From contig CAJXNM010000025.1 in assembly GCA_913057135.1 (NCBI GenBank), forward strand, positions 1-42,224: 42,224 nt of DNA, written 5' to 3'. The DNA is from an uncultured Halieaceae bacterium (lineage in GTDB: Bacteria > Pseudomonadota > Gammaproteobacteria > Pseudomonadales > Halieaceae). Shown one piece after another: positions 8,103 to 35,171 of this stretch. Positions within the stretch are counted from its first letter, which is position 1. Each line of letters begins with the position of its first letter. Below the pieces are notes generated by a model. The model was given only the letters and a program-made list of their open reading frames with translations, was not told the DNA's origin and ran no database searches. Both the position numbers and the translations under genes were made by a program.

Positions 8103-10331
8103 CTACTCGGGCCTAACGTTATCAATTTCCCAATTGAAATGAACGCCCGCCTGCAACTGGGTTAGCTGCCCAGCTGTCGTCGAGTCGTAGCTAAAGACTG
8201 AAAACGCGGCACCATCATCAGTGATATACACGCCCACGGAATCGTTATCGGTGATGGTAGATGTGTCGATAACAAAATCGCTGATGTAACCGCGCTGCTG
8301 GTCGTTGAGGGTGACAAAAAACCTAACCTCCAGCTGACCCGGATCAGGCTTTTCAATAGTGATCATGCGTGCACTTTGATGCGCTCTGAAGCTTTGAATG
8401 TGACCCGGCTCCAGTGGTGTGTCGGGTTGAAAGGCTAACTCATAGGCAATCGTGAATTCAGGTCTTAGAACAGAGCTCTGCACTAAATCGATCTGTTCAT
8501 GGGGTATGTCGCTATCGACCAGAGTGCGCCACTCGTAGCCCGTGCGCAGAAACTCTCTAATGGCATCAAAAGCACTTAGTGCAGAGGTATCAACACTGCT
8601 GAGCTCATAGAGTGTGGAGGACAACTGATAACCAAAAAAAGTTGCTTCACTATTGGGAATTTCCGCCACGTCAGTACGGCTTTCAAAGTCGTAGCCAGTC
8701 ACACGACCATCGCTGTCTATCACCTGAGCCTCAATGCCGAGATTGATAAAACGCGTACTACCTACAGGTAACACACCGACATCGGGATCGTCGTATAAGG
8801 AGAGTGGCTCGGGACACATAGGGTTATTAAGTTCAACACCGGAATAGAGTTGCTCTGCCTCGACGGCATTGATACTGGCCATGTACTGCCAAGACTCACT
8901 ACCCGGGGTAGTGTCAACTTCGATATAACGCCCCATGTCACCGGGTTCATTGCTGTCATACACGTAAATCCGTTTGATATTGGCACCCTCATCGCTGATC
9001 GCATAAGGGGTTACAGCATGAGCAGCGCCAGGTCGTTTGATACCCAGCGACGCGATCGGATCCTCTGTGCCGAAACCCGCTTCAATCATGTCAATGACAT
9101 CTGTTGGCCTTAGTGACTGGCACACGTCAATTTTATGGGCTACCAGCTGTTTCGAGTATTGTGCGATTTGCTTACTGACAATCAATTCACTGACATCGTT
9201 GTAGTTGAGCTGAATGGTAGATTGAGCCGAGGGATTGTAGTCAGAGGGGCTATTTTTACCCTTAAAGCTAGAGTATGCGCCCGGGGTAGCCAGCATGGTT
9301 GCCGCTACGGCCATGCCGTTACAAACACCGTTAGTCGAATCATGGGGTACCAACGTGGTGGATACAAAGCGTCCGTAAGGGTTGAGCCCCACACACTGGT
9401 TGTCACGAACGAAACAAACGGAATTCAGGCCAAACTCCTGGGCGATCAGCTCTTTCGGAAACAGGGACGCAATGGCGGGGTACCCCACATTTCGAAAGCC
9501 GAAGCCACTCACTGAGGGATTCAAGTTGCCACTGGCGTAAACATTGGACGGCAAGTCAGCCTCTTGGTTATCCGTGATCGTCAGGAAGATGGAAGCATAA
9601 GTGTCATCGTCTTCTTGGATAAATGTTTCGACGAAATCCGCCTCAGTGCCAGCCGAGAAGTAAAAACCAAGGTGGTACGCCCCGCTGGTTGAGAAGCGAC
9701 CGACATCAAAATCCAGATTCACCGCAACATTATTTTGAGAAAACTCCTGGATATCGAAATTGGCTAGGGAGCATTCCAAAGGACTCTCAAACAAGGGCTG
9801 CAGAGCTAATGCACCTCCCTCTTGCAAGACAAAACACAACTGCTCATCGTCGGACAAAAGAAAGGGCACGATGAAAGCCTGTCCCTCAGAGGGCAGTAGA
9901 TCAAAATTCGGGTAAAGCCGAATACGCACACGGACTGGAGCGTCAATGCTGGCATTACCCGATATATTGAGACTTGTGGGGCTAGTGCCCTCAACTCCAC
10001 CAAAAGGGAAAATCCATTGCTTATCGAGTTCAAAGCCGCTGTTGTCATATGAGCCTGAGTCATAGCGCCCAAAAAATGGCATGGTTTCAGTAAAAATTGA
10101 CCCCGATGGCTGGGCGCTGAACGTTAAAACCCCGTATTCGCCCCCCTCTAAAACAGATTTATTAGCGACCTCGGGGGGAGACGGTGGCTCTTCTGAAGCC
10201 CCCGGCTCAGTGGGGGCATTGGTATCAACGCTCTGCGATGTGCCGCTATCGCATCCGACTAAACAAAAGGTTGCAATCAGTGCCACCGCAGCCAGAGCGC
10301 GACGGCAAAATGTTTCGAAAGACTCGTTCAT
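8103..10331 (-). CDS. Large lipoprotein with papain-like Cys/His/Asp arrangement
   Basis: The start is set at the ATG at 10331, because a GTAAGG ribosome site lies six bases before it; an upstream in-frame start at 10364 lacks one. The 742-residue product begins with a lipoprotein signal peptide ending in LVGC, with lipidation at Cys27. A Ser/Pro/Glu-rich linker and a beta-rich N-terminal half follow. In the middle, a GVCNGMAVAA segment (Cys337), an AAHAVTPYAI segment (His438) and a YVYDSNEPG segment (Asp459, Asn461) are spaced and worded like papain-like cysteine peptidases or transglutaminase-like folds. The C-terminal ~270 residues look beta-rich. This suggests an outer-membrane-anchored peptidase or cross-linking enzyme, but I do not recognise a named family. 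It is probably transcribed separately from the pirin gene upstream, because a hairpin lies between them. Confidence 0.65.
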   Translation of the reverse strand: MNESFETFCRRALAAVALIATFCLVGCDSGTSQSVDTNAPTEPGASEEPPSPPEVANKSVLEGGEYGVLTFSAQPSGSIFTETMPFFGRYDSGSYDNSGFELDKQWIFPFGGVEGTSPTSLNISGNASIDAPVRVRIRLYPNFDLLPSEGQAFIVPFLLSDDEQLCFVLQEGGALALQPLFESPLECSLANFDIQEFSQNNVAVNLDFDVGRFSTSGAYHLGFYFSAGTEADFVETFIQEDDDTYASIFLTITDNQEADLPSNVYASGNLNPSVSGFGFRNVGYPAIASLFPKELIAQEFGLNSVCFVRDNQCVGLNPYGRFVSTTLVPHDSTNGVCNGMAVAATMLATPGAYSSFKGKNSPSDYNPSAQSTIQLNYNDVSELIVSKQIAQYSKQLVAHKIDVCQSLRPTDVIDMIEAGFGTEDPIASLGIKRPGAAHAVTPYAISDEGANIKRIYVYDSNEPGDMGRYIEVDTTPGSESWQYMASINAVEAEQLYSGVELNNPMCPEPLSLYDDPDVGVLPVGSTRFINLGIEAQVIDSDGRVTGYDFESRTDVAEIPNSEATFFGYQLSSTLYELSSVDTSALSAFDAIREFLRTGYEWRTLVDSDIPHEQIDLVQSSVLRPEFTIAYELAFQPDTPLEPGHIQSFRAHQSARMITIEKPDPGQLEVRFFVTLNDQQRGYISDFVIDTSTITDNDSVGVYITDDGAAFSVFSYDSTTAGQLTQLQAGVHFNWEIDNVRPE

Positions 10332-10450
10332 GTTTTTCCTTACAGCGAGGGGTGACTTACACATCCACTAGTGCAGTCTCAGCAACGCAGGACCACAACC
10401 AATAGCTGGAGTGAAATACTAGCTCAAACAAGGCTAAAAATATGGCTAAA

Positions 10451-10476
10451 TGTTGATAGGCGTATGCTATCTAACA
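10451..10476 (-). terminator. Possible hairpin terminator after the pirin gene
   Basis: An imperfect inverted repeat (arms TGTTGATAG and CTATCTAACA, one bulged base, seven-base loop) starts eight bases beyond the pirin stop on the minus strand. The RNA reading leftward is then T-rich with a run of five T about 10 bases later. It would end the catabolic operon before the lipoprotein gene. The stem is AT-rich and the T-run is displaced, so an operator for the lipoprotein gene is an alternative. Confidence 0.35.
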
Positions 10477-10484
10477 ACGCCACA

Positions 10485-11333
10485 CTAAGGTGTCTGCACC
10501 AACGTACCCGCCTGGTAATCCCTAATAGCCTGCTCAATTTGCTCTCGGGTATTCATCACAAAGGGACCGTAGCCAATAACAGGCTCACGAATAGGGCGGC
10601 CGGTCATTAACAGCAGGCGAGCACCCCCTGTCCCCGCCGTCAAAGTCCACTGATCGCCAGGGCTTGCAATAGCAAGGTGAGCAGCGTTCACAACACTATC
10701 GGCACAAGACACACTGCCATCATAGATGTATCCAAGTACGTTATCGCCGGGGTCGATATCCACTGACACCGTAGCACCCTGATCAATAGTGAGATCGATG
10801 AGCGATGCTTGAGGTACCAGTTCGAACAGCGGGCCGACCACTGACTGCCCGTTCAAAACCCATTCACCTGCAATAGCAAGAGCCCTGAAGTCTTCGCCGT
10901 CTAGGCACCCTAAGCCTGCCCGGGGAATATCCCGGTATCGTGGGGGCGCCATTTTTTGTGCCGCAGGCAAATTGAACCAAAGCTGGAAGCCGTGCAGACC
11001 TTGCGTATCTTGCGTCGGCATCTCTGAATGAATCACCCCACTCCCCGCCGACATCCACTGTGCACCGCCGCTGCGAATTTCTCCGCGATTACCCATGCTG
11101 TCTTCATGAATGATGCCGCCATCAATCATGTAGGTAAGGGTCTGCATGCCCCGATGAGGATGAGGCGGGAAGCCACCGGCAAAGTCTTCACGATACGGGG
11201 AACGCAGTTCATCAATCAGCAGAACCGGGTCGGTGCGTGGCTCATTCATGAGCACAACCCGTTTAATGGCAACACCGTCACCATCGCGGCTTGGTTGGCT
11301 GGGTGTACATTCAACAATCTGGCAGTTAATCAC
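10485..11333 (-). CDS. Pirin-family cupin protein
   Basis: The 282-residue product carries the pirin signature FPPHPHRGMQTLTYMI near residues 55-70, a GGAQWMSAGSGVIHSEM block typical of the N-terminal cupin barrel, and the usual C-terminal barrel ending in a conserved GPFVMNTREQI segment. Pirins are iron-binding cupins; some have quercetinase activity and others modulate regulators or metabolic enzymes. The start is a GTG preceded by AAGGGAG at good spacing. It is the last gene of the leftward catabolic series, 118 bp after the cupin gene, and that gap holds no recognisable signal. Its role in the pathway is unknown; stress response or ring oxidation are both possible. Confidence 0.88.
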   Translation of the reverse strand: MINCQIVECTPSQPSRDGDGVAIKRVVLMNEPRTDPVLLIDELRSPYREDFAGGFPPHPHRGMQTLTYMIDGGIIHEDSMGNRGEIRSGGAQWMSAGSGVIHSEMPTQDTQGLHGFQLWFNLPAAQKMAPPRYRDIPRAGLGCLDGEDFRALAIAGEWVLNGQSVVGPLFELVPQASLIDLTIDQGATVSVDIDPGDNVLGYIYDGSVSCADSVVNAAHLAIASPGDQWTLTAGTGGARLLLMTGRPIREPVIGYGPFVMNTREQIEQAIRDYQAGTLVQTP

Positions 11334-12086: not shown

Positions 12087-13721
12087 TCATCCGACGGCCA
12101 AGTCCAACATCGCCCGCAACTTGGTCTTCAAAATCTTACCAATATGGCTTCGGGGTAATTCGTCCAGTTGCTTCAGTGCTGAGATACGCTGAGTTTTACC
12201 CAACCGTTCGTTCACTCGCTCGCAAAGGGCCTGCAAATCGAGCTCTTTACCATCGGACGCTACAACGAAGCCCACAGGTGTTTCACCCCACCGCTCGGAG
12301 GGCACACCAATGACAGCGGCATCGACAACCTCTGGCTGACTAAGCAGCGCATCTTCGAGATCCCGCGGATACACATTAAAGCCACCTGAAATAATCATGT
12401 CTTTGGCGCGACCAAGCAGGGTAACGAAACCCTCTTCGTCTACCCTGCCAATATCACCCATACGCTGCCAGCGATCACCGTTTTCATCGTACCAGCTGGC
12501 TTCTTCGGTTTTTTCCGGTTGATTTTGATACCCCGACATCATGGTGGTAGAGCGCCCTACCAATTCGCCGATCTCTCCAGGGGGTAGGCGGTTAAGCTGC
12601 TCATCAATGGTGATGACTTCACTGCCACCCCAGGGAATACCCACCGTGTGAAGCTTATCGGGATGACTATCGGCACGAAGGAGACACACTACGCCCCCTT
12701 CGGTCATGGAATAAATTTCAATGAGTGCACCGGGCATACGCCGCACGACTTCGGCTTTGAGTTGGGCAGAGAACGGCGCGCTTGTGCAGTATTTGAGGGC
12801 CAAGCTCGATAGGTCGTAATCGTCAAACTGGGGGAAGTCCATCAGCCGCTGATACTGAATGGGCACCAAAATAGTGTGGCTTACTTTATGTTGCTGAACC
12901 AACGCCAACCAGCCAGCGCAATCGAACTTTGGCATAAGCACCGCAGTACCGCCGTAAGCGACGGTGGCAACAAAGATGCCCAAAGTCGTATTGGAATACA
13001 TGGGGGTCGAGAGCAATGTCACTTGGCCGGGCAAACCCAATCCGCTCTCTTCACCCACCGCCATTTGGTTCCAGCGCATCTGCCGGCTGTGCACTATGCC
13101 CTTGGGGGTTCCCGTGGTACCGCTGGAGTAAATGATGTTGTAAGGGTCAGAGGGTGCGGTGGCGATATCCTTTGGAGTAGCGCCCTCTGTAGCCATCCAA
13201 GCGAATAGGGAAGGCGCGCCAGAGAGCTCGTCACCCTCATCGAGAAATACATGCTTCATTGGCGGCACGCTGATGCCACTCTCGGCTAGCTCAGCGTGTT
13301 TTTTACGATCGATGAATAGATGGCTTGCGTCGCTATCACTCATCATGGCCACCAGCTGGTTCGGGGCGGCCGACGTTGTCAGCGGCGCGGCGCAGCCACC
13401 CGCCACAATTGCGGCTAAATACACCAATGCGTAGCGGGCGCTGGTGGTTCCCAAAATCGACACAGCCTGCCCTTTCGCTAGACCCTCGGCTTGCAACTGC
13501 GCAGCGATACGATTGACGAGTGCTGCCGTCTCGGCCCACGTCAAGCGCTCTTCACCGTCGTCTAAAGCTATCCGACCGGGTTGGTTCACACCGTGGGCAT
13601 TGATGAGCCACGCGAGCTGGCCGAAGGGTTGCTTCAAGTAGGCGATGGTATCGAGCGGCGCTGCGGAAGAGGATGATGTCATGACAGACCCCAATGTCGG
13701 ATGGGTGTTAGCGTTTGTCAT
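12087..13721 (-). CDS. Acyl-CoA synthetase (AMP-forming), minus-strand operon
   Basis: This 544-residue member of the ANL superfamily has the ATP-binding P-loop YSSGTTGTPKG at residues 198-208, an ExYSMTEGG adenine-site motif, the GRAKDMIISGGFNVYP hinge region and a C-terminal Gly-Lys (in SHIGKILK) for adenylate formation. It makes an acyl-CoA from a carboxylic acid, ATP and CoA. A second ligase is encoded on the other arm of the cluster, so the pathway may activate two different acids or one acid at two stages. The start at 13721 is the first in frame; an ATG at 13682 is an alternative, and neither has a strong ribosome site. The enoyl-CoA hydratase-family gene lies 32 bp upstream in transcription order. 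Confidence 0.85.
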   Translation of the reverse strand: MTNANTHPTLGSVMTSSSSAAPLDTIAYLKQPFGQLAWLINAHGVNQPGRIALDDGEERLTWAETAALVNRIAAQLQAEGLAKGQAVSILGTTSARYALVYLAAIVAGGCAAPLTTSAAPNQLVAMMSDSDASHLFIDRKKHAELAESGISVPPMKHVFLDEGDELSGAPSLFAWMATEGATPKDIATAPSDPYNIIYSSGTTGTPKGIVHSRQMRWNQMAVGEESGLGLPGQVTLLSTPMYSNTTLGIFVATVAYGGTAVLMPKFDCAGWLALVQQHKVSHTILVPIQYQRLMDFPQFDDYDLSSLALKYCTSAPFSAQLKAEVVRRMPGALIEIYSMTEGGVVCLLRADSHPDKLHTVGIPWGGSEVITIDEQLNRLPPGEIGELVGRSTTMMSGYQNQPEKTEEASWYDENGDRWQRMGDIGRVDEEGFVTLLGRAKDMIISGGFNVYPRDLEDALLSQPEVVDAAVIGVPSERWGETPVGFVVASDGKELDLQALCERVNERLGKTQRISALKQLDELPRSHIGKILKTKLRAMLDLAVG

Positions 13722-13753: not shown

Positions 13754-14545
13754 TCAGAGATCCCGCCACTGGGGTGGTCGTTTTTCCAAAAATGCATTAA
13801 TTGCTTCTCTGGCATCTTGCGTGCCGGCCACTAGAGTTTGTTGACGATCTTCAAGCGCCATTGCGGCATCTAGGGAAGGTGCGTCGATAGCAAAATTCAG
13901 TCCTTCTTTGGTAAGTCGCAAACCCATCGGGGAGGTCAAAGACATGTCGGTAATATAGGTTTCCGCCGCCGCGCTAAGTTGTTCTGGCGCTACCACCTCT
14001 GAAACCAAGTTCACTTGCAGCGCGCGCTGCGCGTCAATGAAGCGACCGGTCAACATCAGTTCGCTGGCTACCGACAAACCCACAAGGCGAGGCAGCAAAT
14101 AGCTACATCCCATATCGCAGGCTGTAAGGCCGGCCCGGATATAAGCGGCATTCATGCGTGCGTCCGTGGCCGCAATACGAATATCAGCAGCTAGCGCCAA
14201 ACTAAACCCACCACCACAGGCTGCGCCCTGAATAAGAGCAATAATGGGCTGAGGGCAGCGTCGCATGGCGCGGTAAATATCGGAAATACCCGTCTGCATC
14301 GCTAGAAGTGCTTGTGGTGAATCATCGCCACCCCATCCGCCACTTTGTAAATCAAGCCCTGCACAGAAGGCTCTGCCATTGGCGCGCAGAACAACCATAC
14401 GTACGTCAGATTGCGTCTTTAAACCTTCAAAGGTATCTCGCAACGCCTGCACTAACTCGGCGTTCATCGAATTCAGTGCGTCAGGGCGGTTTAGCGTCAG
14501 CCAAAGCGTATTGCCACGCATTTCCTGAAGTAGGGTGTCGGTCAT
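13754..14545 (-). CDS. Enoyl-CoA hydratase/isomerase (crotonase) family protein lacking both hydratase glutamates
   Basis: The 263-residue protein has the crotonase fold markers: FCAGLDL for the first oxyanion-hole amide (residues 60-66) and CGGGFSLALAAD for the second (110-121). Aligned by eye to rat enoyl-CoA hydratase, the two catalytic glutamates (Glu144 and Glu164) fall at Ser115 and Tyr135. Asp144, in a TACDMG segment, is the nearest acidic candidate. So the reaction may be isomerisation, hydrolysis or C-C cleavage rather than hydration. AGGAG lies ten bases before the ATG. It sits between the acyl-CoA dehydrogenase gene (89-bp gap) and the ligase gene. Confidence 0.85.
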   Translation of the reverse strand: MTDTLLQEMRGNTLWLTLNRPDALNSMNAELVQALRDTFEGLKTQSDVRMVVLRANGRAFCAGLDLQSGGWGGDDSPQALLAMQTGISDIYRAMRRCPQPIIALIQGAACGGGFSLALAADIRIAATDARMNAAYIRAGLTACDMGCSYLLPRLVGLSVASELMLTGRFIDAQRALQVNLVSEVVAPEQLSAAAETYITDMSLTSPMGLRLTKEGLNFAIDAPSLDAAMALEDRQQTLVAGTQDAREAINAFLEKRPPQWRDL

Positions 14546-14634: not shown

Positions 14635-15771
14635 CTACAGGGATCGTGCAATCAGCAACCGCATGATTTCAGACGTGCCCCCATGAATGGTATCGATGCG
14701 TGCGTCCTTGTAGAGCTGGGCAATGGGGTACTCATTCATCCAGCCATAGCCACCGAAAAACTGTAGACACTTGTTAATGCCGTCGACTTCACGCTCGGTG
14801 ATCCACAGCTTGGCCATGGAGGCTGTCGCAGCATCAAGTTGGCCCTTTAAGAGTAACGCTGTGCAGTGATCGAGGAACGCTTTACCAATCGTCACTTCGG
14901 TCTTGACATCGGCCAATGAAAACGCCGTGTTTTGAAAGTCAATAAGGGACTGCCCGAAAGCTTGACGCTCTTTGGTGTATTCCACCGTGAGTTTCAGCGC
15001 ACGCTCCAACATACCTAAACCCATAACAGCAATGCCCAATCGTTCTTGGGGCAGCAATTCCATGAGCTGCGCAAACCCACGACCCGGCTCACCACCCAAC
15101 ACATTGCTGTAGGGTAAACGCACATCCTCAAAAAACAGCTCAGAAGTGTCTTGGGCGTCCCGGCCCATCTTGTCTAAATTTTTACCGCGCTTGAATCCAG
15201 GTCGATCGCCCTCCACCAAGAAAATCGAGATTTTATCTTTGCCATCACCCATATCGGTTTTGGCACAGAGGAGAACCAAATCGGCCATTTGTCCGTTGGA
15301 GATGAATACTTTACTGCCATTGATGACCCACTCATCGCCATCTCTTACCGCTCGAGTGCGCATACCCTGTAAATCCGAGCCTGCGCCGGGCTCGGTCATA
15401 GCAATGGCAAGAATCGACTCGCCCGATACCACTTTGGGTAACCAGCGTGTTTTTTGCTCATCGGTACCATGTTCAATGAGATAAGGGGCCGCAATCATAT
15501 TGTGTACCGGCACACCCCATCCCTCGAGCCCGCGCTCAGCAAACGCCTCCATAATGACGCGCTCATACCTAAAGTCGACACCTAATCCGCCGTACGCCTC
15601 AGGCACCAGTACACCTAACATGCCAAATTCACCGGCAGCTAACCAAGCATCGCGATCAACCTGTTTGTTCTGATTCCATGCGGCTATGCGTTCCGGGGAG
15701 GCCGTTTTATCTAAAAAACCGGCCAGGCTATTTTCGAATAGTGTTAGCGCTTCGTCTTGTTGCTGAATCAT
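14635..15771 (-). CDS. Acyl-CoA dehydrogenase with isovaleryl/long-chain-type catalytic glutamate
   Basis: The ATG at 15771 is preferred over a GTG six codons upstream, which lacks a ribosome site. The 378-residue FAD enzyme shows the usual AMTEPGAGSD (residues 124-133) and KVFISNG substrate/FAD loops, the REVDGINKCLQFFGGYG region and the terminal GGTSEIMR. At the position of the MCAD catalytic base (Glu in a Tyr-Glu-Gly-Thr segment) this protein has Gly364, within IHGGT. Instead, Glu243 in LPQERL matches the base of long-chain and isovaleryl-CoA dehydrogenases. It would introduce a double bond alpha-beta to the CoA thioester, plausibly on a branched acyl chain. It follows the MeaB-type gene almost directly. 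Confidence 0.9.
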   Translation of the reverse strand: MIQQQDEALTLFENSLAGFLDKTASPERIAAWNQNKQVDRDAWLAAGEFGMLGVLVPEAYGGLGVDFRYERVIMEAFAERGLEGWGVPVHNMIAAPYLIEHGTDEQKTRWLPKVVSGESILAIAMTEPGAGSDLQGMRTRAVRDGDEWVINGSKVFISNGQMADLVLLCAKTDMGDGKDKISIFLVEGDRPGFKRGKNLDKMGRDAQDTSELFFEDVRLPYSNVLGGEPGRGFAQLMELLPQERLGIAVMGLGMLERALKLTVEYTKERQAFGQSLIDFQNTAFSLADVKTEVTIGKAFLDHCTALLLKGQLDAATASMAKLWITEREVDGINKCLQFFGGYGWMNEYPIAQLYKDARIDTIHGGTSEIMRLLIARSL

Positions 15772-15792
15772 CAATACACCGTCGTGCACTAG

Positions 15793-16749
15793 TTAATGTT
15801 TTTTGGCTTCGACACTACTGAGCATCTCGGCCTGTAATACTTCTAGGGGTATCTCACCCCGGAGTACCGCCGATAACCGATGGCTGCCATGTTCACTGTC
15901 GAGGTAGTCGTACATGCGTGACAGCAGGCCACGCTCCAGAATGCGCATGAGTAATCGTCGACGCCGCTTTTCTTGCTTTTTTGCTAACAAACCCTGTTCT
16001 CGGGCACTGCATAAGTAGCTCTCTACGCCATTCCACAGAGCATCCACGCCCTGCTGTTGCACCGCAACGGTGTCAAAAATCGAAATGGGCACAGGTGATT
16101 GCAACAGCGCTAAAGAATCCTGCAGATCTGCTCGGGTTTGCGCAGCACCCTCTTTATCTGCCTTGTTAATGACAAAGATGTCACCCGCTTCCGTTAGACC
16201 CGCCTTATTCGCCTGAAAGGTGTCGCCCCACCCCGGATTGAGCACCACCATGACAACGGTTGCGATGTCCATGACATCGAGCTCAACTTGACCGATTCCG
16301 AGTGTCTCTAAAATGATCAGCTGCCAACCACAGGCATCTAGCAGTTGAACGGCAGTTGCTGTCGTACGAGCCAAGCCGCCGTTTTCACCACGGGATGCCA
16401 TTGAACGAATGAACACACACTCACCAAGGCCGTGACTCTGCATGCGAACACGATCACCCAGTAACGCGCCCCCTGAAAATGGTGATGATGGATCGACCGC
16501 CAACACCGCTGTTTTGCCCATTGCCGCTGTCGCGGGACCCAACAGAGAGCTAATCAGCGTCGATTTTCCCGCACCAGGCGGGCCGGTGACACCAACGACC
16601 ACAGCGCGCGCCTCCGTACCCGCTAGAGCGAGACGCAGCTCTGACTCCACAACGGGAGAACGCTCTATTTGACTCAGTAATCGAGCCAGGCTGCCACGAT
16701 CGCCGTTACGTGCGGACTCAAGGAGCGTATGAATGTCAGACAGATCCAC
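15793..16749 (-). CDS. meaB: MeaB-type GTPase chaperone for the B12-dependent mutase
   Basis: The 318-residue P-loop G3E-family GTPase has Walker A GPPGAGKST at residues 56-64, a DPSSPFSGGALLGDR segment, an ETLGIGQVE switch region and the NKAD guanine-specificity motif, all characteristic of MeaB/ArgK. MeaB proteins gate loading of adenosylcobalamin into the partner mutase and protect or reset the inactivated enzyme. The start is a GTG six bases after the stop of the small mutase subunit, so it is translationally coupled to its likely partner. Paralogues serving other mutases (MeaH and MeaI types) look alike, so the symbol denotes the family rather than a methylmalonyl-CoA-specific role. Confidence 0.9.
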   Translation of the reverse strand: MDLSDIHTLLESARNGDRGSLARLLSQIERSPVVESELRLALAGTEARAVVVGVTGPPGAGKSTLISSLLGPATAAMGKTAVLAVDPSSPFSGGALLGDRVRMQSHGLGECVFIRSMASRGENGGLARTTATAVQLLDACGWQLIILETLGIGQVELDVMDIATVVMVVLNPGWGDTFQANKAGLTEAGDIFVINKADKEGAAQTRADLQDSLALLQSPVPISIFDTVAVQQQGVDALWNGVESYLCSAREQGLLAKKQEKRRRRLLMRILERGLLSRMYDYLDSEHGSHRLSAVLRGEIPLEVLQAEMLSSVEAKKH

Positions 16750-16755
16750 GGCGTG

Positions 16756-17142
16756 CTAGCGTGTGCCTGTTAAACGCTCGGCGGCATCGACAATATCAAC
16801 CAACTGGGAGCCGGGTGGATACACCTCCACCCCCAAAGCTTCGAGCTGCTTGGCCGCATGTGGCGGTATCGTGCCACCAGCGAAAATAGGCAATCCAGGA
16901 CGTGCCACCTGAACCTGCTCGATGGCGCGAATGGCAACATCAATGTGTCCACCCACATTGAGTCCGACCAAATCAACATCTTCGTCAACGGCTGCAGACA
17001 CGATATCGTCTGTGCTCGCCATACCAATCATAATCACTTCAAAACCGGCGTCGCGGAGGGCTCTCGCCACAATAGTGGGTCCACGCCAATGGCCATCGAG
17101 ACCGGTTTTTGCCATGAGAATACGTTTCTGCGAGTTATCCAT
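16756..17142 (-). CDS. Cobalamin-binding small subunit of acyl-CoA mutase
   Basis: This is a stand-alone 128-residue B12-binding Rossmann-like domain. The base-off/His-on motif DxHxxG is intact (Asp16, His18, Gly21), and the FAGGTIPP loop matches the dimethylbenzimidazole pocket of the family. The usual Ser-x-Leu segment near VGVSSLAAGH is replaced by a shorter VGLNVGGH. A TAGGAG ribosome site lies just upstream. Separate small subunits occur in isobutyryl-CoA, 2-hydroxyisobutyryl-CoA and archaeal methylmalonyl-CoA mutases. It lies 11 bp after the large-subunit stop and 6 bp before the chaperone GTPase gene. Confidence 0.92.
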   Translation of the reverse strand: MDNSQKRILMAKTGLDGHWRGPTIVARALRDAGFEVIMIGMASTDDIVSAAVDEDVDLVGLNVGGHIDVAIRAIEQVQVARPGLPIFAGGTIPPHAAKQLEALGVEVYPPGSQLVDIVDAAERLTGTR

Positions 17143-17153
17143 GTGCCGGTCTC

Positions 17154-18785
17154 CTAAGTTTGAATGGGCGTATTCCAGTTGCCAAAGACCTCTCGATACA
17201 CATCGCCAATCTCACCCAACGTGACTTCGGCAGCCAAGGCATCCATCATGGCGGGCATAATGTTTTTATCACTGCGGCAATCTGCCGCTAACTGTTTCAG
17301 TGCTGCGGCTGCACCAGCCTCATGGCGACTACGCAACACCTCATTCAAACGCTCTGTGGCAACATCAAAGGCGTCATCGGTACCCATAAAACCATCGACT
17401 TCAAAAGGCGATTCGTCGTCTCGGAAGCAATTGACCCCAATAATCTTCTGCTCACCTGACTCAGTGTGCATAAACTCCTGGTATTGGTTGTCTGCAGCTT
17501 GAGCATGTAACCAACCTGAATCGAGCGCCGCCAAATACCCGCCTTGCAGCTGAATAGCCTCGAAAAACGCCCACGCTTTTTCGACAAGCTGTGCAGTAAG
17601 TGTCTCCACATAGAACGAGCCACCCAAGGGATCTGTAACATCGGCTATGCCCGTTTCCTCCTGCAAAATCTGCTGGATACGCACCGACATCTGATGAGCA
17701 TGCTCAGAGGGGATAGAAAGCGCTTCGTCATATCCCGAAACCCCGAGGGATTGCACGCCTCCCAAAATGGCACCTAGTGCCATCACTGTACCCCGAACAA
17801 TATTATTTAGCGGCTGCTGGTAGGTCATTTTCGAACCCGCAGTCACACAATGAATGCGGAGATTTCTCACCTTTGGGTCTGAGATGTTGTAGCGCTCGAC
17901 CAGTAGCTGACTCCACATCAACCTAGCAGCGCGCATCTTGCAGGCCTCTTCAATGATATTAATGGAGGCTCTAAAACTGACGCCGCCACAACCACGTGCC
18001 GCCTGTACCAGTGGCATATTGCCCCGGCGTTGAATCTCATCGAGATACTCCACCGCGTTCGCAAACAACACACCTAACTCTTGGTCGGGGGTTAAACCGG
18101 TGTCGGCGGCGTTATAACCAGCGATGGAAACGGGGACCCACCTTGGCAAATACTGTTCGCAGAACTCGATGATATCGGCATTGAAACGCAAACCCGCCTC
18201 GGTAGGGATTTGCTCTTTGGTGACGCACCCTAGGTACGTCAGATTGAAATCACTTTGCCCAGTGCCGCTAATGGTGGCCAAATCAAATCCGCGCTGTTTG
18301 GCAACCGTCCAATAGGCTGCCAACGCAAAAGGGGCATGCTGTACAACCGCGCCACCTGCATGGCCAAAGGACGTATCTACAGGCAGGCCATCCATACAAA
18401 TAGCCGTGTCTCTGACGCTTTGCATGACCGCACCGGTTAGTCCCACATCTTCCCGTCGCGCTATCACATCAGGGTGCGTGACGTTGTAACAATGATCGGC
18501 GGTGTTTCGATCGTGCTCCATGATGAAACCTGTCTCGCCGTTTTTAAGCAAGAACTTGATGCGCTCGTTCTCATCCTCGGGTTTACCAAAGCCACTCAGC
18601 TGGAAGATTCGCCATGGTTTTGATCGATAACCACTCGCGTGAAATCCTCGGTGGAACTGTGCTTCACCAGGCGCAACATCAACGTTAGGACGATGATGCT
18701 CGGGTATATCGGCCGAGGTGTAGTAGGGCTTGAGTTCAATGCCCGACGTACAAGTTCGGGATTTATCGGTGGGCTTCTGGCTCAT
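17154..18785 (-). CDS. Divergent adenosylcobalamin-dependent acyl-CoA mutase, large subunit
   Basis: The ATG at 18785 is preferred; a start 14 codons upstream (18827) would overlap the palindromic control site. The ~543-residue protein is the TIM-barrel half of the methylmalonyl-CoA mutase family, with no fused B12 domain. Family landmarks are KPWRIFQLSGFG (residues 56-67), GTGQSD (174-179), VSIAGYNAADTG (219-230) and LGGSFYVE. Compared by eye with methylmalonyl-CoA mutase, Tyr89 is kept (Tyr53), Ala116-Phe117 become Glu90-His91, Arg207 becomes Cys187 and His244 becomes Asn225. Loss of the Arg argues against a dicarboxyl-CoA substrate. It should catalyse a carbon-skeleton rearrangement of an unidentified acyl-CoA. 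It is the first gene of the leftward operon. Confidence 0.9.
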   Translation of the reverse strand: MSQKPTDKSRTCTSGIELKPYYTSADIPEHHRPNVDVAPGEAQFHRGFHASGYRSKPWRIFQLSGFGKPEDENERIKFLLKNGETGFIMEHDRNTADHCYNVTHPDVIARREDVGLTGAVMQSVRDTAICMDGLPVDTSFGHAGGAVVQHAPFALAAYWTVAKQRGFDLATISGTGQSDFNLTYLGCVTKEQIPTEAGLRFNADIIEFCEQYLPRWVPVSIAGYNAADTGLTPDQELGVLFANAVEYLDEIQRRGNMPLVQAARGCGGVSFRASINIIEEACKMRAARLMWSQLLVERYNISDPKVRNLRIHCVTAGSKMTYQQPLNNIVRGTVMALGAILGGVQSLGVSGYDEALSIPSEHAHQMSVRIQQILQEETGIADVTDPLGGSFYVETLTAQLVEKAWAFFEAIQLQGGYLAALDSGWLHAQAADNQYQEFMHTESGEQKIIGVNCFRDDESPFEVDGFMGTDDAFDVATERLNEVLRSRHEAGAAAALKQLAADCRSDKNIMPAMMDALAAEVTLGEIGDVYREVFGNWNTPIQT

Positions 18786-18910: not shown

Positions 18911-20092
18911 ATGTTTTCAGCAGACAGCGCTACGCTAGGTTTGACGGCAACCGAAAGGGTTCATATCGGGCGACGTGCCGCGGATGCCCTGGCCGAAGAA
19001 GCCTCTACTCTCAATGCAAAACGCATTTTTTTGCTGGTCAGTTCGACCATGCGCTCAACCACCAACGAAATCGCACTGATCGAGGAAGCCTTGGGCAATC
19101 GGCTCGCCACCGTGTTTGACGGGATTGGCCCCCACGCCCCACGAACCGACGTGCTCAAAGCCATCGAAGCCGCACGCGATGCAGACGCCGACCTGATTAT
19201 TACCGTTGGTGGTGGTTCCGTTACTGACGCGGGCAAAGTCATTGCCCTGGGCTTGAAACACAACATTCGGAGCTTTGAGGATTTCGAGGGCTATTACGTC
19301 TACGTTAATGAAGCAGGCGAAACGGTTGTTCCGGACTTCGAAGCACCCGATATACGTGTCATCTGCTGCCCCACGACCCTGTCCGGAGGCGAATTCAACA
19401 CCATGGGGGGAGTGACTGATGATCGCGAAAATAAAAAACAGGGCTACACACACCGAATGATGGCACCCATCGCCATCGTGCTTGACCCTGCGCTCACCGT
19501 TTACACCCCGGAATGGCTGTGGACCTCTACCGGTGTACGCTCGGTTGATCACGCTTTGGAGGCACTTGGATCAAAGCATTCCAATCACTTTTGTGACGGG
19601 GTTGCCGCAAGTGCGCTACGCCTGCTCAGTAAAGCCCTCCCTGAAGTGCAAGCGGATCCCACGAACCTCGACGCACGATTGCGCTGTCAGGTGGGTGCTT
19701 GGCAATCCATGATTCCAATTATTGGCGGTGTACCGATGGGGGCAAGCCACGCTATCGGCCACGTGCTCGGTGGCACCGCCGATGTTCCACACGGTTATTG
19801 TTCCTGTGTCATGGCACCCGCTGTTTTGGCTTACAACAAATCCGTCAACGGTGACAAACAGCAGCAAATCAGCGAATGCTTTGGTCGCGCAGGTGAAGAC
19901 GCAAGCACAGTAGTCGACGAATTTATTCGAGGTCTTGGCATGCCTCGGTCTCTTCCGGAAGTGAATGTAACCGAAGACAAACTCCAGATTATTTCCGAAT
20001 ACACCATGCTTGATTTCTGGTCGCGTACTAACCCAAGGCCCATCAACGGACCTGAGGATGTCATGACCATATTGGAGATGGTTAAAGCCTAG
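18911..20092 (+). CDS. Iron-containing-type (group III) alcohol dehydrogenase
   Basis: The 393-residue protein has the NAD-binding GGGSVTDAGK motif (residues 100-109), LSGGEFN, and the metal-site region GASHAIGHVLGG (278-288) followed by VPHGY. Candidate metal ligands are His214, His280 and His294. The aspartate that is the first ligand in FucO-type enzymes corresponds here to Arg210 (TGVRSVDH), as in some maleylacetate-reductase-like members, so metal dependence is uncertain. It probably interconverts an alcohol and an aldehyde or ketone in the pathway, for example the P450 product. An AAGGGC ribosome site precedes the ATG. It is the first gene of the rightward arm; its stop overlaps the start of the TetR gene. 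Confidence 0.88.
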   Translation: MFSADSATLGLTATERVHIGRRAADALAEEASTLNAKRIFLLVSSTMRSTTNEIALIEEALGNRLATVFDGIGPHAPRTDVLKAIEAARDADADLIITVGGGSVTDAGKVIALGLKHNIRSFEDFEGYYVYVNEAGETVVPDFEAPDIRVICCPTTLSGGEFNTMGGVTDDRENKKQGYTHRMMAPIAIVLDPALTVYTPEWLWTSTGVRSVDHALEALGSKHSNHFCDGVAASALRLLSKALPEVQADPTNLDARLRCQVGAWQSMIPIIGGVPMGASHAIGHVLGGTADVPHGYCSCVMAPAVLAYNKSVNGDKQQQISECFGRAGEDASTVVDEFIRGLGMPRSLPEVNVTEDKLQIISEYTMLDFWSRTNPRPINGPEDVMTILEMVKA

Positions 20093-20811
20093 TGTCGACC
20101 CTGACTGCGCCTGAACCCCCCGCGACCTCTGGCAATCTCAAAACAGAGGTCTCGGACTTTAAGCGTCGACGTATACGCGAGGAGGCGTGTTCGCTGTTCT
20201 TTGAGCGTGGCTACGAGAGTACAACACTTGACGCTGTGGCTCAGGCCCTTGAAGTCACCAAGCCCTTTATTTACAGCTACTACTCAAACAAAAGTGAATT
20301 GCTTTACGACATCTGCCGTCTTGGTATCGCGCTCTCCCTAGAGGCCATGCAGAAAGCCGCCTCACTCGATCGACCTCCAAATGATCGCTTACAGATTGTC
20401 GTTGAATCAGTGCTGGCCATCATTTTTGAGTATCGCAAGTTCATTGTGGTTTATGAACGTGAAGAGAAAAATCTAGACTCGGCAAAAGCCCGTGAAATTC
20501 GAGATTTGCGCAAACTGTTTGATCACCAATTAGCGGACCTGCTGGCCGAGGGCGATCGCCTGGGAGAGTTTCAAATCGCCGATCCCGTTCTAACCGCCAC
20601 CACCATTGGAGGCATGATTACTTGGGTAGCCCAGTGGTATTCACCTGCGGGTAAACGGTCCCGACTGGACATCACCAATCACACCTTGCTCATGGTGAAT
20701 GCCGTGGTACGTATCCGTGGCATGGAGCAAATCGCTGACAACAGTGTTAAGCCAATGAATCTTTTACACACCAACAAGAAGCCACGCACCAAGCAAGTGA
20801 AAGGGGGCTAG
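20092..20811 (+). CDS. TetR/AcrR-family transcriptional regulator
   Basis: The 239-residue protein has an N-terminal TetR helix-turn-helix: FERGYESTTLDAVAQALEV, then TKPFIYSYYSNKSELL (residues 39-75). An all-helical ligand domain follows, of the kind seen in regulators of lipid and steroid catabolism such as KstR2. It probably represses the divergent cluster and is released by a pathway CoA-thioester or substrate; the palindromes at 18819-18858 are candidate operators. It starts with GTG, sharing one base with the alcohol dehydrogenase stop (TAGTG), and stops six bases before the next ligase gene, so it lies inside the operon it probably controls. Confidence 0.9.
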   Translation: MSTLTAPEPPATSGNLKTEVSDFKRRRIREEACSLFFERGYESTTLDAVAQALEVTKPFIYSYYSNKSELLYDICRLGIALSLEAMQKAASLDRPPNDRLQIVVESVLAIIFEYRKFIVVYEREEKNLDSAKAREIRDLRKLFDHQLADLLAEGDRLGEFQIADPVLTATTIGGMITWVAQWYSPAGKRSRLDITNHTLLMVNAVVRIRGMEQIADNSVKPMNLLHTNKKPRTKQVKGG

Positions 20812-20816
20812 CGACT

Positions 20817-22436
20817 ATGCAGTCATTATCTTCTACCTCAGACCCCAGAATTCCCAGCCGCGATAAATGCGTTACACGCTATCTGCTTGAGCGTTATGCG
20901 CAGGAAACCCCCGATAAAGTATTCGCTATTTTTGAGGATGGCGAAGAATGGACCTATAGTGAATTGGCCTCAAAGGTACGCTCGCTGGCCGGTGGTCTGG
21001 CCAGTGAAGGCATCAACCGTGGCGATCATGTGGTCGTATGGATGTTCGATAGCAAAGAGGCCATTCTGACCTTCATGGCCATCAACTACATAGGCGCCGT
21101 ATTCGTACCATTAAATACTGCGTTCAAAGGCGGCGTCCTTGAGCATGTGCTTAACGTCTCTGATGCCTGCCATATGGTTGTTCACGGGCAGTTAATTGAG
21201 CGGCTAGCGGATATTGATGTTGCTCGTATACAGCACCTCATTCACGTCGGTGCCAGCAGTGCTCCTCAGTTACTCCGTCAGACCAACTACGCCGACCTAG
21301 CAGACAGCCAACAAGTACCGCCCGAGTTGGAGGTGCCCATTGAGCCCTGGGATACCCAATCCATCATTTTCACATCGGGTACAACAGGTCCATCAAAAGG
21401 AGTGCTGTCCTCTTACCTCCATATTTTCACGAATGCAGGACCAGAGACTTGGCATTTCGTCACGGGTGAGGATCGCTTCCTTATCAACATGCCCATATTC
21501 CACATCGGCGGGATGGGCGTGATCTTTGTCATGCTATGCCGAGGTGGTTCCATTGCCATGATGAACGCCTTCAACACGGAGACGTTCTGGCCGTTCGTGC
21601 GCCAAAGCCAAACAACTGCGTTTTTCTTGCTTGGTGTCATGACCACATTCCTTTTGAAACAACCACCAACCGACAACGATAAAGAGCACAATGTTCGGGT
21701 GGCGTTTATGGTGCCGTTAACCGAGACCTGTACCGAGTTTCACGAGCGCTTTGGTATCGACGTCTACACCATATTCAACATGACTGAAATTTCATCGCCC
21801 ATCGTGTCGGAACCCAATCCGGTGAGACGCGGCACCTGTGGCAAAAAGCGCAACGGTGTTGATGTGCGTCTAGTCGACGCCAACGATTGTGAAGTGCCAC
21901 TGGGTGAAATCGGCGAAATGGTCGTGCGTACTGATCGCCCCTGGGGTATGAACAGCGGCTACTACAAAAACCCCGAGGCAACCGCCGAAGCGTGGCGTAA
22001 TGGTTGGTTCCACACCGGGGACTGCTTCCGTCAAGACGAAGAAGGCTATTTCTACTTTGTCGATCGTATGAAAGACGCCATGCGACGACGGGGTGAAAAC
22101 ATTTCCTCCTTTGAGGTAGAAGCCGAGGTCGTGGCATTTGCCGCTGTGCGGGAAGCTGCGGCTTTCGCCGTTCCCAGCGACCTAGGTGAAGACGATGTCA
22201 TGATTGCCGTTGCACCCGTGGAAGGGTATGACATTGATCATCGTGAGCTCATGATGTTCCTTGGGGAGCGCATGCCTTACTTCATGGTACCCCGTTACAT
22301 CCGTGTTCTAAGCGAGCTACCCAAAACCCCTTCCTCTAAGGTGATGAAACACATTCTTCGCAATGAGGGCGTCACTGTTGATACATGGGATAGAGAGGCT
22401 CACAACATCAGCTTTAAACGCGAAAAACTTAGCTAG
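20817..22436 (+). CDS. Acyl-CoA synthetase (AMP-forming), plus-strand operon
   Basis: The 539-residue ANL-superfamily ligase has the P-loop IFTSGTTGPSKG (residues 184-195), an FNMTEISSP adenine motif, the GWFHTGD segment, the hinge DRMKDAMRRRGENISSFEVE and a C-terminal SSKVMK lysine. The wording around the hinge resembles CaiC-like and medium-chain ligases, but the substrate cannot be deduced. It complements the ligase on the opposite strand; an acid produced by the oxygenases could be its target. It starts five bases after the TetR stop, with AAGGGGG upstream. Confidence 0.88.
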   Translation: MQSLSSTSDPRIPSRDKCVTRYLLERYAQETPDKVFAIFEDGEEWTYSELASKVRSLAGGLASEGINRGDHVVVWMFDSKEAILTFMAINYIGAVFVPLNTAFKGGVLEHVLNVSDACHMVVHGQLIERLADIDVARIQHLIHVGASSAPQLLRQTNYADLADSQQVPPELEVPIEPWDTQSIIFTSGTTGPSKGVLSSYLHIFTNAGPETWHFVTGEDRFLINMPIFHIGGMGVIFVMLCRGGSIAMMNAFNTETFWPFVRQSQTTAFFLLGVMTTFLLKQPPTDNDKEHNVRVAFMVPLTETCTEFHERFGIDVYTIFNMTEISSPIVSEPNPVRRGTCGKKRNGVDVRLVDANDCEVPLGEIGEMVVRTDRPWGMNSGYYKNPEATAEAWRNGWFHTGDCFRQDEEGYFYFVDRMKDAMRRRGENISSFEVEAEVVAFAAVREAAAFAVPSDLGEDDVMIAVAPVEGYDIDHRELMMFLGERMPYFMVPRYIRVLSELPKTPSSKVMKHILRNEGVTVDTWDREAHNISFKREKLS

Positions 22437-22476: not shown

Positions 22477-24681
22477 ATGGACCTACCAACAATAAATAGA
22501 AAAGTCAGCACCGGATTTGGCTTGAGCCTGATGACTCTCGCCGTGTCGGCTGTGGCGCAAGAAACGGCACTTGAAGAAGTTGTGGTTACCGCATCCAAGC
22601 GCTCAGTCGCCTTGGAGGATTTAGCCGGTTCTGCCAATGTTTTAGGCACAGATCAACTCGGGCCAGGTGGCATCCAAGAAGTGCGCGACATGCAAGTGGA
22701 CGTCCCCAACTTGTCCCTTGGGGATCAGTTCGGTTTCGCCCGGGTATTCATGCGTGGTGTGGGTATGACAAGTATCGATATTGGTGGAGAGGGCGCTGTA
22801 GCGTTCTTGCAAGATGGCGCCATCGTGCCCCGACCAGCGGCCCAGCTAATGGGCATGTTTGATTTAGCTCAGGTTGAGGTTTTACGAGGACCTCAGGGAA
22901 CCCTGTACGGCCGCGGCGCCACAGCTGGCGCTATCAACATGGTGACCGAAAAACCCGGTGATAGCTTTGGTGGTTATGTCAACTTGACCGCCGGCAACTA
23001 CGCACTGAAACAATTGAGGGCCGCGGTCGATGTCCCTTTAAGCGATAGCCTCGCAGTGAGGGTAGCCACAAGCATCGACAAACGCGACGGTTACGGAAAA
23101 AACCTGTTCAATGATCAGGATATTAATAACCGCGACGCCCAAGCCTTCAGAGCGAATTTCGTCTACGACGCGGGGGGTGCATTCTCTGCTCAGTTAATGG
23201 CACAAACCTATAAAGAAGACGATCAAAACTACGCGTTCAACTACCTAGGCCCCTCTGCAGGTACCAGCTTACCCGTACCGCTGGCAGTGCCAATCCTCGG
23301 CGGCCAGACCGTAGGCATGGTGGGCGGTGGTTTTCAGGACATCAATTCCGACCAACAAGCTATCAACGATCGTGACGGCACGCTTGTTAACCTAACTATG
23401 AATTATGAGTTAAGCGACTCTCTGAGCGTTAAATCCATTACCTCATCCCAAAGTCTCGACCGATTCCTACGTGATGATCTAGATTCAACCGATGCCAATC
23501 TTTTCGGTCGTAACGACTACACCGAAGAGAGCGACTCTCTCAGCCAAGAGTTCATCCTGAATTACAGCAGCGGCAAGCTCGATATTTTGGCCGGCGCTAT
23601 GTACTTCGAAGAAGATTTATACGGAGAAGTGCGTGTGCCGCTGACTAACGTGTGTTTCTTGTTGGCCCCCGATGCCTGTGGCACACCAATTGGTGACGCA
23701 CTCAATAGCGGTAACTACCTGCAAGATGGGGATGTCGATATTGAAGCCTACGGCGCCTATGCCGAGGCCACTTACACAGTCAATGATCAGTGGACTGTCA
23801 TCGCGGGCCTGCGCAACAACTATGAAGAACGTACCGGTACGGGTTCGTTCGTGTTCGATGCTATTGGACTCGACGTGCCCACCAATGCCACCGAAAATTG
23901 GGATGACGTGACACCTCGCTTCACGTTGCAGTATCGCCCCTCCGATAACATGATGATGTATGCCACCTACACTGAAGCATTCAAATCAGGCGTCATTAAT
24001 ACGGGCAGCGTCAGCCCGCCGCTAGACCCCGAAACCGTCGACGCCTTTGAAGTAGGCATTAAAGGCAATAATGCCGATAACAGCGTGCGATACTCGCTGG
24101 CCGGCTTCTTTTATGACTACCAAAATCTTCAGATTTCATTCGTCGATGAAACCTCAACGGTATCAACCGTTAATGCCGCCGAAGCGGAAAACTACGGACT
24201 TGAGTTCGAACTTGATGCGGAGCTTGGCAATGGCTTCGCAGTTGATCTGTATCTCACCTATCTCAGTGCTGAATACCAAGAGTTCTTTAATGGCGACTAT
24301 GCGAACGGGTTTGCCATTGCTGACCTCAGCGGCAACACACTTCCCAATGCACCAGAAACTACCGCAAAGTTAGGTGTGACATGGACAGGTGAAGCTGCAG
24401 GTGGCGTGGTACATGTCCGCGGTGAAGCCTATTATCAAGACGATGTTTACTTCACCGAATGGAACCGTCCGGATGCATTCCAAGAAGCCTACGAGCAGTA
24501 CAACGCTTCAATTGAGTATGTGTATCAGGATCGCTGGTCGTTCACCCTATGGGGCCGTAACTTAAGTGACGAGGATGTGATCTCCAATAACATCATTACA
24601 GCACCGCTATACGATTCACTACGAGTCGGCGCTTTGTTACCACCGCGTACCGTAGGTGCATCTGTCGGACTGCAGTTCTAA
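22477..24681 (+). CDS. TonB-dependent receptor of the catabolic cluster
   Basis: The ATG at 22477 is chosen because GGAG lies seven bases upstream and a clean signal peptide follows, with cleavage after Ala-Val-Ala-Gln near residue 28. The 734-residue product has an EEVVVTASKR TonB-box region, a plug with VFMRGVG and a block reading QVEVLRGPQGTLYGRGATAGAINMVT (split here as family landmarks), and a barrel ending in Gln-Phe. This group of receptors is common in sphingomonads and marine gammaproteobacteria next to genes for hydrophobic or aromatic compounds (family knowledge, from memory). Its position between a CoA ligase and a P450 makes it the likely uptake route for the pathway substrate. 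Confidence 0.92.
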   Translation: MDLPTINRKVSTGFGLSLMTLAVSAVAQETALEEVVVTASKRSVALEDLAGSANVLGTDQLGPGGIQEVRDMQVDVPNLSLGDQFGFARVFMRGVGMTSIDIGGEGAVAFLQDGAIVPRPAAQLMGMFDLAQVEVLRGPQGTLYGRGATAGAINMVTEKPGDSFGGYVNLTAGNYALKQLRAAVDVPLSDSLAVRVATSIDKRDGYGKNLFNDQDINNRDAQAFRANFVYDAGGAFSAQLMAQTYKEDDQNYAFNYLGPSAGTSLPVPLAVPILGGQTVGMVGGGFQDINSDQQAINDRDGTLVNLTMNYELSDSLSVKSITSSQSLDRFLRDDLDSTDANLFGRNDYTEESDSLSQEFILNYSSGKLDILAGAMYFEEDLYGEVRVPLTNVCFLLAPDACGTPIGDALNSGNYLQDGDVDIEAYGAYAEATYTVNDQWTVIAGLRNNYEERTGTGSFVFDAIGLDVPTNATENWDDVTPRFTLQYRPSDNMMMYATYTEAFKSGVINTGSVSPPLDPETVDAFEVGIKGNNADNSVRYSLAGFFYDYQNLQISFVDETSTVSTVNAAEAENYGLEFELDAELGNGFAVDLYLTYLSAEYQEFFNGDYANGFAIADLSGNTLPNAPETTAKLGVTWTGEAAGGVVHVRGEAYYQDDVYFTEWNRPDAFQEAYEQYNASIEYVYQDRWSFTLWGRNLSDEDVISNNIITAPLYDSLRVGALLPPRTVGASVGLQF

Positions 24682-34129: not shown

Positions 34130-34130
34130 A

Positions 34131-35156: not shown

Positions 35157-35171
35157 AACAAGCTGCCAATA

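Follow-up and report, generated by a model that had tools for sequence, protein, structure and literature searches.

The locus considered here raises the question of whether a B12-dependent acyl-CoA mutase with an unusual substrate pocket represents a class of its own, and on what kind of substrate such an enzyme might act. The window analyzed, the whole 42,224-nucleotide stretch of an uncultured Halieaceae bacterium (GCA_913057135.1, contig CAJXNM010000025.1), harbors on its minus strand, at positions 17154-18785, a single intact open reading frame (ORF) of 543 codons, running from ATG to stop without internal stop codons, exactly where a first-pass annotation made from the sequence alone had located the mutase. 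The deduced protein of 543 amino acid residues (P0001, the reference for residue numbering throughout) is a substrate-binding, TIM-barrel large subunit, matching Pfam PF01642 (MM_CoA_mutase) with 449 bits over model positions 3-512 of 512 and TIGR00641 with 371.8 bits (cut-off 303.8), and scoring far under the cut-off of the methylmalonyl-CoA mutase (MCM) equivalog NF006944 (333 bits, cut-off 876). Its AlphaFold2 model had a mean pLDDT of 85.8 and a pTM of 0.88 from 39 aligned sequences, an alignment without loci L052 and L071 and with three rows from outside the group defined below (L125, L132 and L095). Foldseek ranked 2-hydroxyisobutyryl-CoA mutase (HCM, 4r3u_A) first, with a TM score of 0.93 by query and 31% identity, followed by human and bacterial MCM (TM 0.85-0.91) and then by IcmF; HCM is also the best PDB match by sequence.

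Directly after the large subunit, on the same strand, follow a small B12-binding subunit of 128 amino acids (16756-17142; PF02310, TIGR00640) and a MeaB-type G-protein chaperone, a GTPase of 318 amino acids (15793-16749; PF03308; TIGR00750 with 245.0 bits, over the cut-off of 240.75). The two subunits combine the determinants of adenosylcobalamin (AdoCbl)-dependent acyl-CoA mutases, namely the MM_CoA_mutase barrel and a B12-binding domain with the DxHxxG motif and its Lys; Lys12 and D16-G-H18-W-R-G21 are invariant in 64 of 64 aligned small subunits, the window's included. Judged by eye, the small subunit apparently has a shorter loop at the site of what we take to be the S-x-L motif of MCM. 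The gene is real and intact, and the predicted product is an AdoCbl-dependent acyl-CoA mutase in two subunits.

The residues lining the pocket set this enzyme and its relatives, found at 74 loci of named genome contigs, apart from the reference mutases. The alignment (MAFFT L-INS-i) comprised 70 group sequences, namely P0001 plus the copies from 69 of the 74 loci, each longer than 480 amino acids and those 69 being 53-90% identical to P0001, together with 32 reference rows. MCM literature numbers were taken as the SEQRES count plus 1 and HCM numbers as the 4r3u SEQRES count minus 11, offsets inferred from the roles presumed for MCM Tyr89, Arg207 and His244 and for HCM Ile90 and Asp117. Leu63 stands opposite MCM Tyr89 and HCM Ile90, Glu90 opposite MCM Ala116 and HCM Asp117, His91 opposite MCM Phe117, Arg93 opposite Leu119, His142 opposite Ser162, Cys187 opposite Arg207, Asn225 opposite His244, Arg272 opposite Gly289, Val314 opposite Gln330, and Gly348 opposite His364; all are present in 70/70 group sequences except Glu90 and His142 (69/70 each) and Val314 (67/70). 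The family residues Thr175, Gln177, Tyr224, Gln345 and Glu354 are likewise kept in 70/70. Five loci outside these counts, L052 (gene inside an over-long ORF) and the incomplete L075, L086, L088 and L091, were read separately and agree at every position that they cover among nine. The 32 references have His at the His244 position in every case, Arg (22), Gln (9) or Asn (1) at that of Arg207, Ala (23), Asp (8) or Leu (1) at that of Ala116, and Tyr (22), Ile (5), Val (3), Leu (1) or Phe (1) at that of Tyr89. Glu90, His91, His142, Cys187, Asn225 and Arg272 each occur in none of the 32 at the same position, and the equivalent of Leu63 occurs in one, the pivalyl-CoA mutase (PCM) anchor. Since sequences as little as 53% and as much as 90% identical keep these residues in 69 or 70 of 70 cases, the pattern is more than chance.

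The sole exception at positions 90 and 142 is L078, from an Ilumatobacteraceae metagenome-assembled genome (MAG), in which Lys takes the place of Glu90 as well as His142 and Ser that of His150, while Leu63, His91, Cys187 and Asn225 are kept. This joint change, although a single event, hints that positions 90, 142 and 150 may contact one and the same part of the substrate. The L078 mutase lies at 8983-10605; an amidase gene, a deacylase-like gene and a pair of luciferase-like monooxygenase genes are among its neighbors.

Most of the pocket described in the first-pass annotation stood up to realignment. Glu90-His91 in place of Ala116-Phe117 and Asn225 in place of His244 were recovered by both MAFFT and hhalign profile comparisons, and His142, placed near MCM Ser164/Thr166, is paired by MAFFT with Ser162. 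Neither the Arg nor the His was restored by MAFFT, phmmer or hhalign. Cys187 as the counterpart of Arg207 holds in MAFFT, phmmer and hhalign against MCM; against HCM, phmmer and hhalign put Cys187-Val188 in a two-residue insertion, so that the position of HCM Gln208 is taken by either Cys187 or Thr189, and the alignment uncertainty is confined to this Arg207 loop. Tyr53 had been equated with MCM Tyr89, which is wrong: all three programs set Leu63 there, in 70/70 sequences, and Tyr53 aligns with Tyr79. The contrast with HCM is also weaker than had been claimed, as Leu63 and Glu90 resemble the HCM pair Ile90/Asp117, a match that had been overlooked. Measured against the markers of the described types, the group has Leu63, Cys187 and Asn225 for the MCM trio Tyr89, Arg207 and His244, and residues similar but not identical to HCM Ile90 and Asp117. 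Compared with PCM and isobutyryl-CoA mutase (ICM), marked by Phe/Leu at 89, Gln/Asn at 207 and non-polar residues at 116-117, and represented here by one IcmF row and Xaut_5043, with the stand-alone Streptomyces ICM outside the comparison, Leu at 89 fits and Glu90-His91 and Cys187 do not. No group sequence has Arg at position 207, the residue taken as a marker of ethylmalonyl-CoA mutase (ECM).

Phylogenetic analysis gave the group a position of its own. The first tree contained 58 rows (26 group sequences and 32 references, 44 of the 70 group rows being left out for speed) and the second 43 rows (57 of the 70 group rows left out, and PCM and IcmF dropped as long branches). In both, the group forms one clade with 100/100 support, on a stem of 2.19 and 2.15 changes per site, respectively, and in the second, with midpoint rooting, it branches outside every other row. 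MCM, HCM and ECM-like rows each form their own clade in the first tree; the 11 MCM rows make up a separate 100/100 clade, and the HCM rows cluster with 100/98 support (five rows, first tree) and 100/99 (eight rows, second tree). Six rows of about 670-740 amino acids, presumed to be ECM-like from their length and from being the second mutase in their genomes, form a further clade separate from the group. Placement within the MCM, HCM or ECM-like clade was rejected by both trees. The PCM anchor joins the group at 97/89 in the first tree, a grouping flagged by the program as long branches meeting, and a tree in which the group and HCM were held as one clade was not rejected (p-AU 0.186, second tree). 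With MCM, HCM, PCM, IcmF and ECM-like rows as references, the group lies outside all these clades; with its 100/100 clade, its long stem, its own pocket residues and no restored Arg or His, its standing as an acyl-CoA mutase class separate from MCM, HCM, PCM and IcmF, as proposed by the first-pass annotation, is well supported among the types compared. Searches of open-access titles and abstracts, not all of them aimed at the clade and with most subscription papers absent, returned no description of it.

Comparison with the individual known mutases is consistent with this placement. HcmAB of Aquincola tertiaricarbonis (4r3u) shares with the group the fold, a separate small B12 subunit, a MeaB-type partner, a ligase nearby and, at the MCM Tyr89 and Ala116 positions, an aliphatic and an acidic residue, respectively. 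It differs in identity (31-33%), in clade, the group's being separate and long-stemmed, in the family of the ligase, and in three residues, for the group has Asn for the HCM His, Cys/Thr for Gln and His for Phe. The conserved ligase of the group is FadD-like, and no chain named HCL, the 2-HIBA-CoA ligase of HCM operons, occurs among the 60 listed of 147 PDB matches. According to PMC7176365, HCM operons have adjacent ligase, mutase and G-protein genes, as a rule accompanied by a GntR regulator, whereas the group has a TetR regulator; the same paper describes RcmAB of Kyrpidia tusciae, compared here by description only, as merely a distant relative of HcmAB and with ligase and G-protein genes in its operon, like the group. 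MCM (1req, 2xij and the genome's own copy) shares the fold, the Thr195/Gln197/Tyr243 positions and the AdoCbl motif, and differs in identity (29-34%), in having Tyr89, Arg207 and His244, all replaced in the group, and in the B12 domain, which in the group is a separate protein. Xaut_5043/5044 of Xanthobacter autotrophicus, which we take to be a pivalyl-CoA mutase, resembles the group in its two subunits, adjoining MeaB-type gene and Leu at the Tyr89 position; at 32% identity, however, Xaut_5043 has Leu-Pro for Glu-His and Asn for Cys, and it keeps His244. Fused IcmF (4xc6) has the same barrel fold in one polypeptide, with Phe, Ala and Gln at positions 89, 116 and 207, and the IcmF row used is 26% identical. 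The plasmid pXAUT01 carries, besides Xaut_5043, a second, HCM-like mutase, Xaut_5021 (L155:9451-11139), which is accompanied by separate genes for a ligase, a GTPase and an adenosyltransferase.

The gene is accessory, patchily distributed within the family and present in two phyla. The window's genome has two mutases, the group member and an ordinary MCM on contig 4, which are 34% identical to each other. With the window genome counted, the group gene was found in 29 of 140 genomes of the family (E ≤ 1e-150) and 7 of 293 genomes of the order (E ≤ 1e-100). Among 398 genomes across the phylum it was found in the window genome only; in that survey, which scored up to three candidates per genome and listed matches at E ≤ 1e-84, 11 other genomes reached this value, none with more than 37% identity. 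A plasmid collection yielded 427 matching records, all below 60% identity. Of the 74 locus titles, taken as deposited and in some cases apparently mislabelled, 25 name Halieaceae or genera assigned there, some of which we presume to belong to the family; the remaining titles refer to Pseudomonadota that are unplaced or from other groups, to Actinomycetota and to two MAGs called just 'bacterium', with no Bacillota named, in a scan that needs short exact peptide patterns. Named strains include Pseudohaliea rubra, Haliea alexandrii, Kineobactrum sediminis and Acidithrix ferrooxidans, alongside marine Halieaceae MAGs. Two MAG contigs, L048 and L058, bear the possibly mislabelled titles Klebsiella pneumoniae and Janthinobacterium lividum, and the gene order of L048 is of the Halieaceae type.

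The surroundings of the mutase suggest a catabolic role. Downstream of the MeaB-type gene, on the minus strand, lie an acyl-CoA dehydrogenase (14635-15789; PF00441/PF02770/PF02771), probably catalyzing the beta-oxidation step after the mutase, a crotonase-fold enzyme of the enoyl-CoA hydratase family (13754-14545; PF00378), and an AMP-forming acyl-CoA ligase (12087-13721; PF00501) that is not conserved with the mutase, its matches in the relative loci being at most 29% identical. Divergently, on the plus strand, follow an iron-containing alcohol dehydrogenase (18911-20092; PF00465), a TetR-family regulator (20092-20811; PF00440, PF17932), a FadD-like acyl-CoA ligase conserved with the mutase (20817-22436; PF00501), which likely activates the mutase substrate, a TonB-dependent receptor (22477-24681, start set by eye; TIGR01783 with 139 bits, below the cut-off of 223.5), which likely takes up a precursor, a cytochrome P450 (24710-25957, start set by eye; best E of 2.7e-53 among PDB P450s), and an SfnG-like, luciferase-like flavin monooxygenase (25963-27036; TIGR04021 with 204.8 bits, below the cut-off of 382.95). 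A camphor-type pathway was considered and found unsupported, the flavin monooxygenase being nearest SfnG/RutA. No cobalamin riboswitch was found in the window at Rfam gathering scores. Inverted repeats are present in the window's own mutase-dehydrogenase intergenic stretch; a shared operator of the two genes is nevertheless unsupported, the one motif tried occurring in 1 of the 47 loci listed, with the stretches cut crudely in some.

Across the 74 loci, clusters of neighbors comprise the small subunit (63), the MeaB-type protein (49), the iron-type dehydrogenase (48), TetR (43), the window-type CoA ligase (51, or 62 with a second ligase type included), the TonB receptor (40), the crotonase (33), the P450 (22) and the flavin monooxygenase (18), followed by a short-chain dehydrogenase/reductase (SDR; 15), a metallo-beta-lactamase (MBL)-type hydrolase (15), the acyl-CoA dehydrogenase (8), a thiolase (8) and a FadB-like protein (5), the names of the last clusters coming from single scanned members or from reading of the sequence. 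All these counts are lower bounds, because many loci end at contig ends. In Actinomycetota the second ligase type follows the mutase genes, and some of these loci have a sugar-type ABC permease (below family cut-offs), a nitroreductase-like gene or a deacylase-like gene nearby. Three alphaproteobacterial loci carry a member of one aldehyde dehydrogenase cluster after the small subunit (domain scanned in L067). In L087 (9604-11535), a nitronate-monooxygenase-family protein and a CoA-transferase-like protein, the latter best matching glutaconate CoA-transferase (1poi) and more weakly 6co6 in the PDB, stand directly after the mutase genes; a steroid ring pathway drawn from these two genes, a weak hint in one locus, is unsupported.

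Taken together, we consider it fairly probable that this catabolic two-subunit enzyme is an AdoCbl-dependent mutase of acyl-CoAs, that it forms a class apart from MCM, HCM, PCM and IcmF, and that its substrate is alpha-branched and polar but not dicarboxylic. With the Arg/Gln anchor lost, a second carboxylate on the substrate seems unlikely, and by analogy with HCM, the replacement of Ala, Phe and Ser by Glu and two His suggests a polar group on the acyl part; with Leu63 and Glu90 at the HCM marker positions, a hydroxylated substrate is a live option. The first-pass prediction of an uncharged, branched acyl-CoA therefore survives in the sense of non-dicarboxylic, given Cys/Thr at the Arg/Gln position, and not further, given the new Arg272 (70/70); the branching would follow from family chemistry. 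The acyl-CoA dehydrogenase and crotonase of the window operon suggest that the product is still saturated when beta-oxidation takes it up.

Read from gene content, the pathway would begin with import of a precursor by the TonB receptor and its oxidation to a carboxylic acid by the P450 or flavin monooxygenase and the iron-type dehydrogenase, the acid then being converted to its CoA thioester by the conserved ligase. On the mutase, with MeaB presumably loading and guarding the cofactor, a 5'-deoxyadenosyl radical would abstract a hydrogen and the CoA-carbonyl group would shift to the neighboring carbon (a radical 1,2-shift). A monocarboxylic, alpha-branched acyl-CoA bearing an oxygen or another polar substituent would thereby become an isomer fit for beta-oxidation by the acyl-CoA dehydrogenase, crotonase, SDR and thiolase. 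A more far-reaching and rather doubtful extension is that, where oxygenated natural products have quaternary or tertiary carbons that block beta-oxidation, the mutase provides marine and freshwater bacteria with a radical bypass, as part of a cluster for uptake, P450 oxidation, ligation, mutation and beta-oxidation whose core would be common to Halieaceae, other Pseudomonadota and Acidimicrobiia. The genes for the TonB receptor, the P450 and the monooxygenase prompt the guess that such substrates might be gem-dimethyl terpenoid or apocarotenoid acids.

Only a handful of acyl-CoA mutase reactions are known, and the discovery of earlier classes brought entire routes of catabolism or biosynthesis to light; the substrate here is probably an acid not yet linked to carbon-rearranging B12 chemistry. 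As the clade includes named strains and marine Halieaceae MAGs, this substrate can be sought directly. A natural variant without His244, kept in all 32 enzymes compared, would be useful for understanding how the family handles its radical, and if the bypass were confirmed, a new mutase class would open a radical route around the beta-oxidation block in marine and freshwater bacteria.

Several observations weigh against this assignment of class and substrate. With Asn in place of His244 and changes at the positions of MCM Gln330 and His364, catalytic competence is uncertain. The residue positions come from sequence alignments, with the 187/189 register ambiguous against HCM, and the class assignment holds among the types compared; those outside the comparison, RcmAB, the stand-alone Streptomyces ICM, verified ECM and ActD/MatB, are most able to change the verdict. 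ActD/MatB mutases are named in PMC5719088. The saturated-stage argument is weak because no more than 8 of the 74 loci have the dehydrogenase cluster, with the actinobacterial L076 among them, or 10 when L020 and L023, which end inside an 85-86% identical copy, are added. Twelve of the 74 loci have neither ligase type, some because their contigs end. Finally, the neighboring genes differ among Halieaceae, alphaproteobacteria and Actinomycetota, so that a single common substrate is not established.

Among the alternatives, a strongly diverged HCM/RcmAB-type reaction, converting 2-hydroxyisobutyryl-CoA or a close 2-hydroxy-2-methyl homologue into a 3-hydroxyacyl-CoA with Glu90 binding the hydroxyl as Asp117 does, survives best and is still unlikely. 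It agrees with HCM as the best PDB match by both sequence and fold, with Leu63 and Glu90 at the Ile90 and Asp117 positions, with the unrejected joint clade and with the association of ligase, mutase and MeaB-type genes described for HCM operons. However, the HCM His has become Asn, its Gln Cys/Thr, and the Phe after its Asp His; HCM is nearer to MCM than to the group, since it scores 444.7 bits against the window genome's MCM and P0001 scores 304 bits against HCM. Moreover, the group has a conserved FadD-type ligase, whereas the ligase gene next to the HCM-like Xaut_5021 carries the annotation phenylacetate-CoA ligase, and a 3-hydroxyacyl-CoA product needs no acyl-CoA dehydrogenase.

The dehydrogenase and crotonase of the window operon would instead suit a mutase for plain alpha-quaternary alkanoyl-CoAs, of the pivalyl-CoA to isovaleryl-CoA type, and the Leu at the Tyr89 position, shared among the 32 references with the PCM anchor only, and the 97/89 join of that anchor with the group point the same way. 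We nevertheless regard this as quite improbable: the join was flagged as a long-branch meeting, the anchor has Leu-Pro rather than Glu-His at 116-117 and keeps His244, its PCM label is our assumption, and a polar Glu/His/His/Asn pocket is a poor match for an alkyl group. Equally improbable is that Glu90 and His91/His142 bind a substrate group that is positively charged or contains nitrogen. An acidic pocket residue in 69/70 sequences, the joint replacements in L078, as if the substrate charge had been reversed, and nitroreductase-like, amidase, amidohydrolase or deacylase-like neighbors in some loci would fit it; yet the co-change is a single event, each nitrogen-related neighbor occurs in few loci and differs between lineages, and HCM uses an acidic residue to bind a neutral hydroxyl. 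That the protein binds AdoCbl without carbon-skeleton mutation, as another isomerase, an eliminase or a regulatory relic, is very improbable despite the lost His244 (kept in 32/32 references) and the altered Gln330 and His364 positions, given the strong conservation of the barrel protein, the B12 motif (64/64) and the nearby CoA ligase and MeaB-type genes. The PDB contains the structure of an MCM H244A mutant (1e1c), and mutants of this kind keep residual activity.

Elsewhere in the window, the minus strand at 33290-39119 encodes TauD-type and 2-oxoglutarate-Fe(II) oxygenases, an aldo-keto reductase, a GFO/IDH/MocA oxidoreductase and a sodium:solute symporter, none of them among the window genes matched in the relative loci. 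Between these and the flavin monooxygenase, also on the minus strand (27354-32623), three genes resemble, by eye from their translations, a tripartite resistance-nodulation-division (RND) efflux system.

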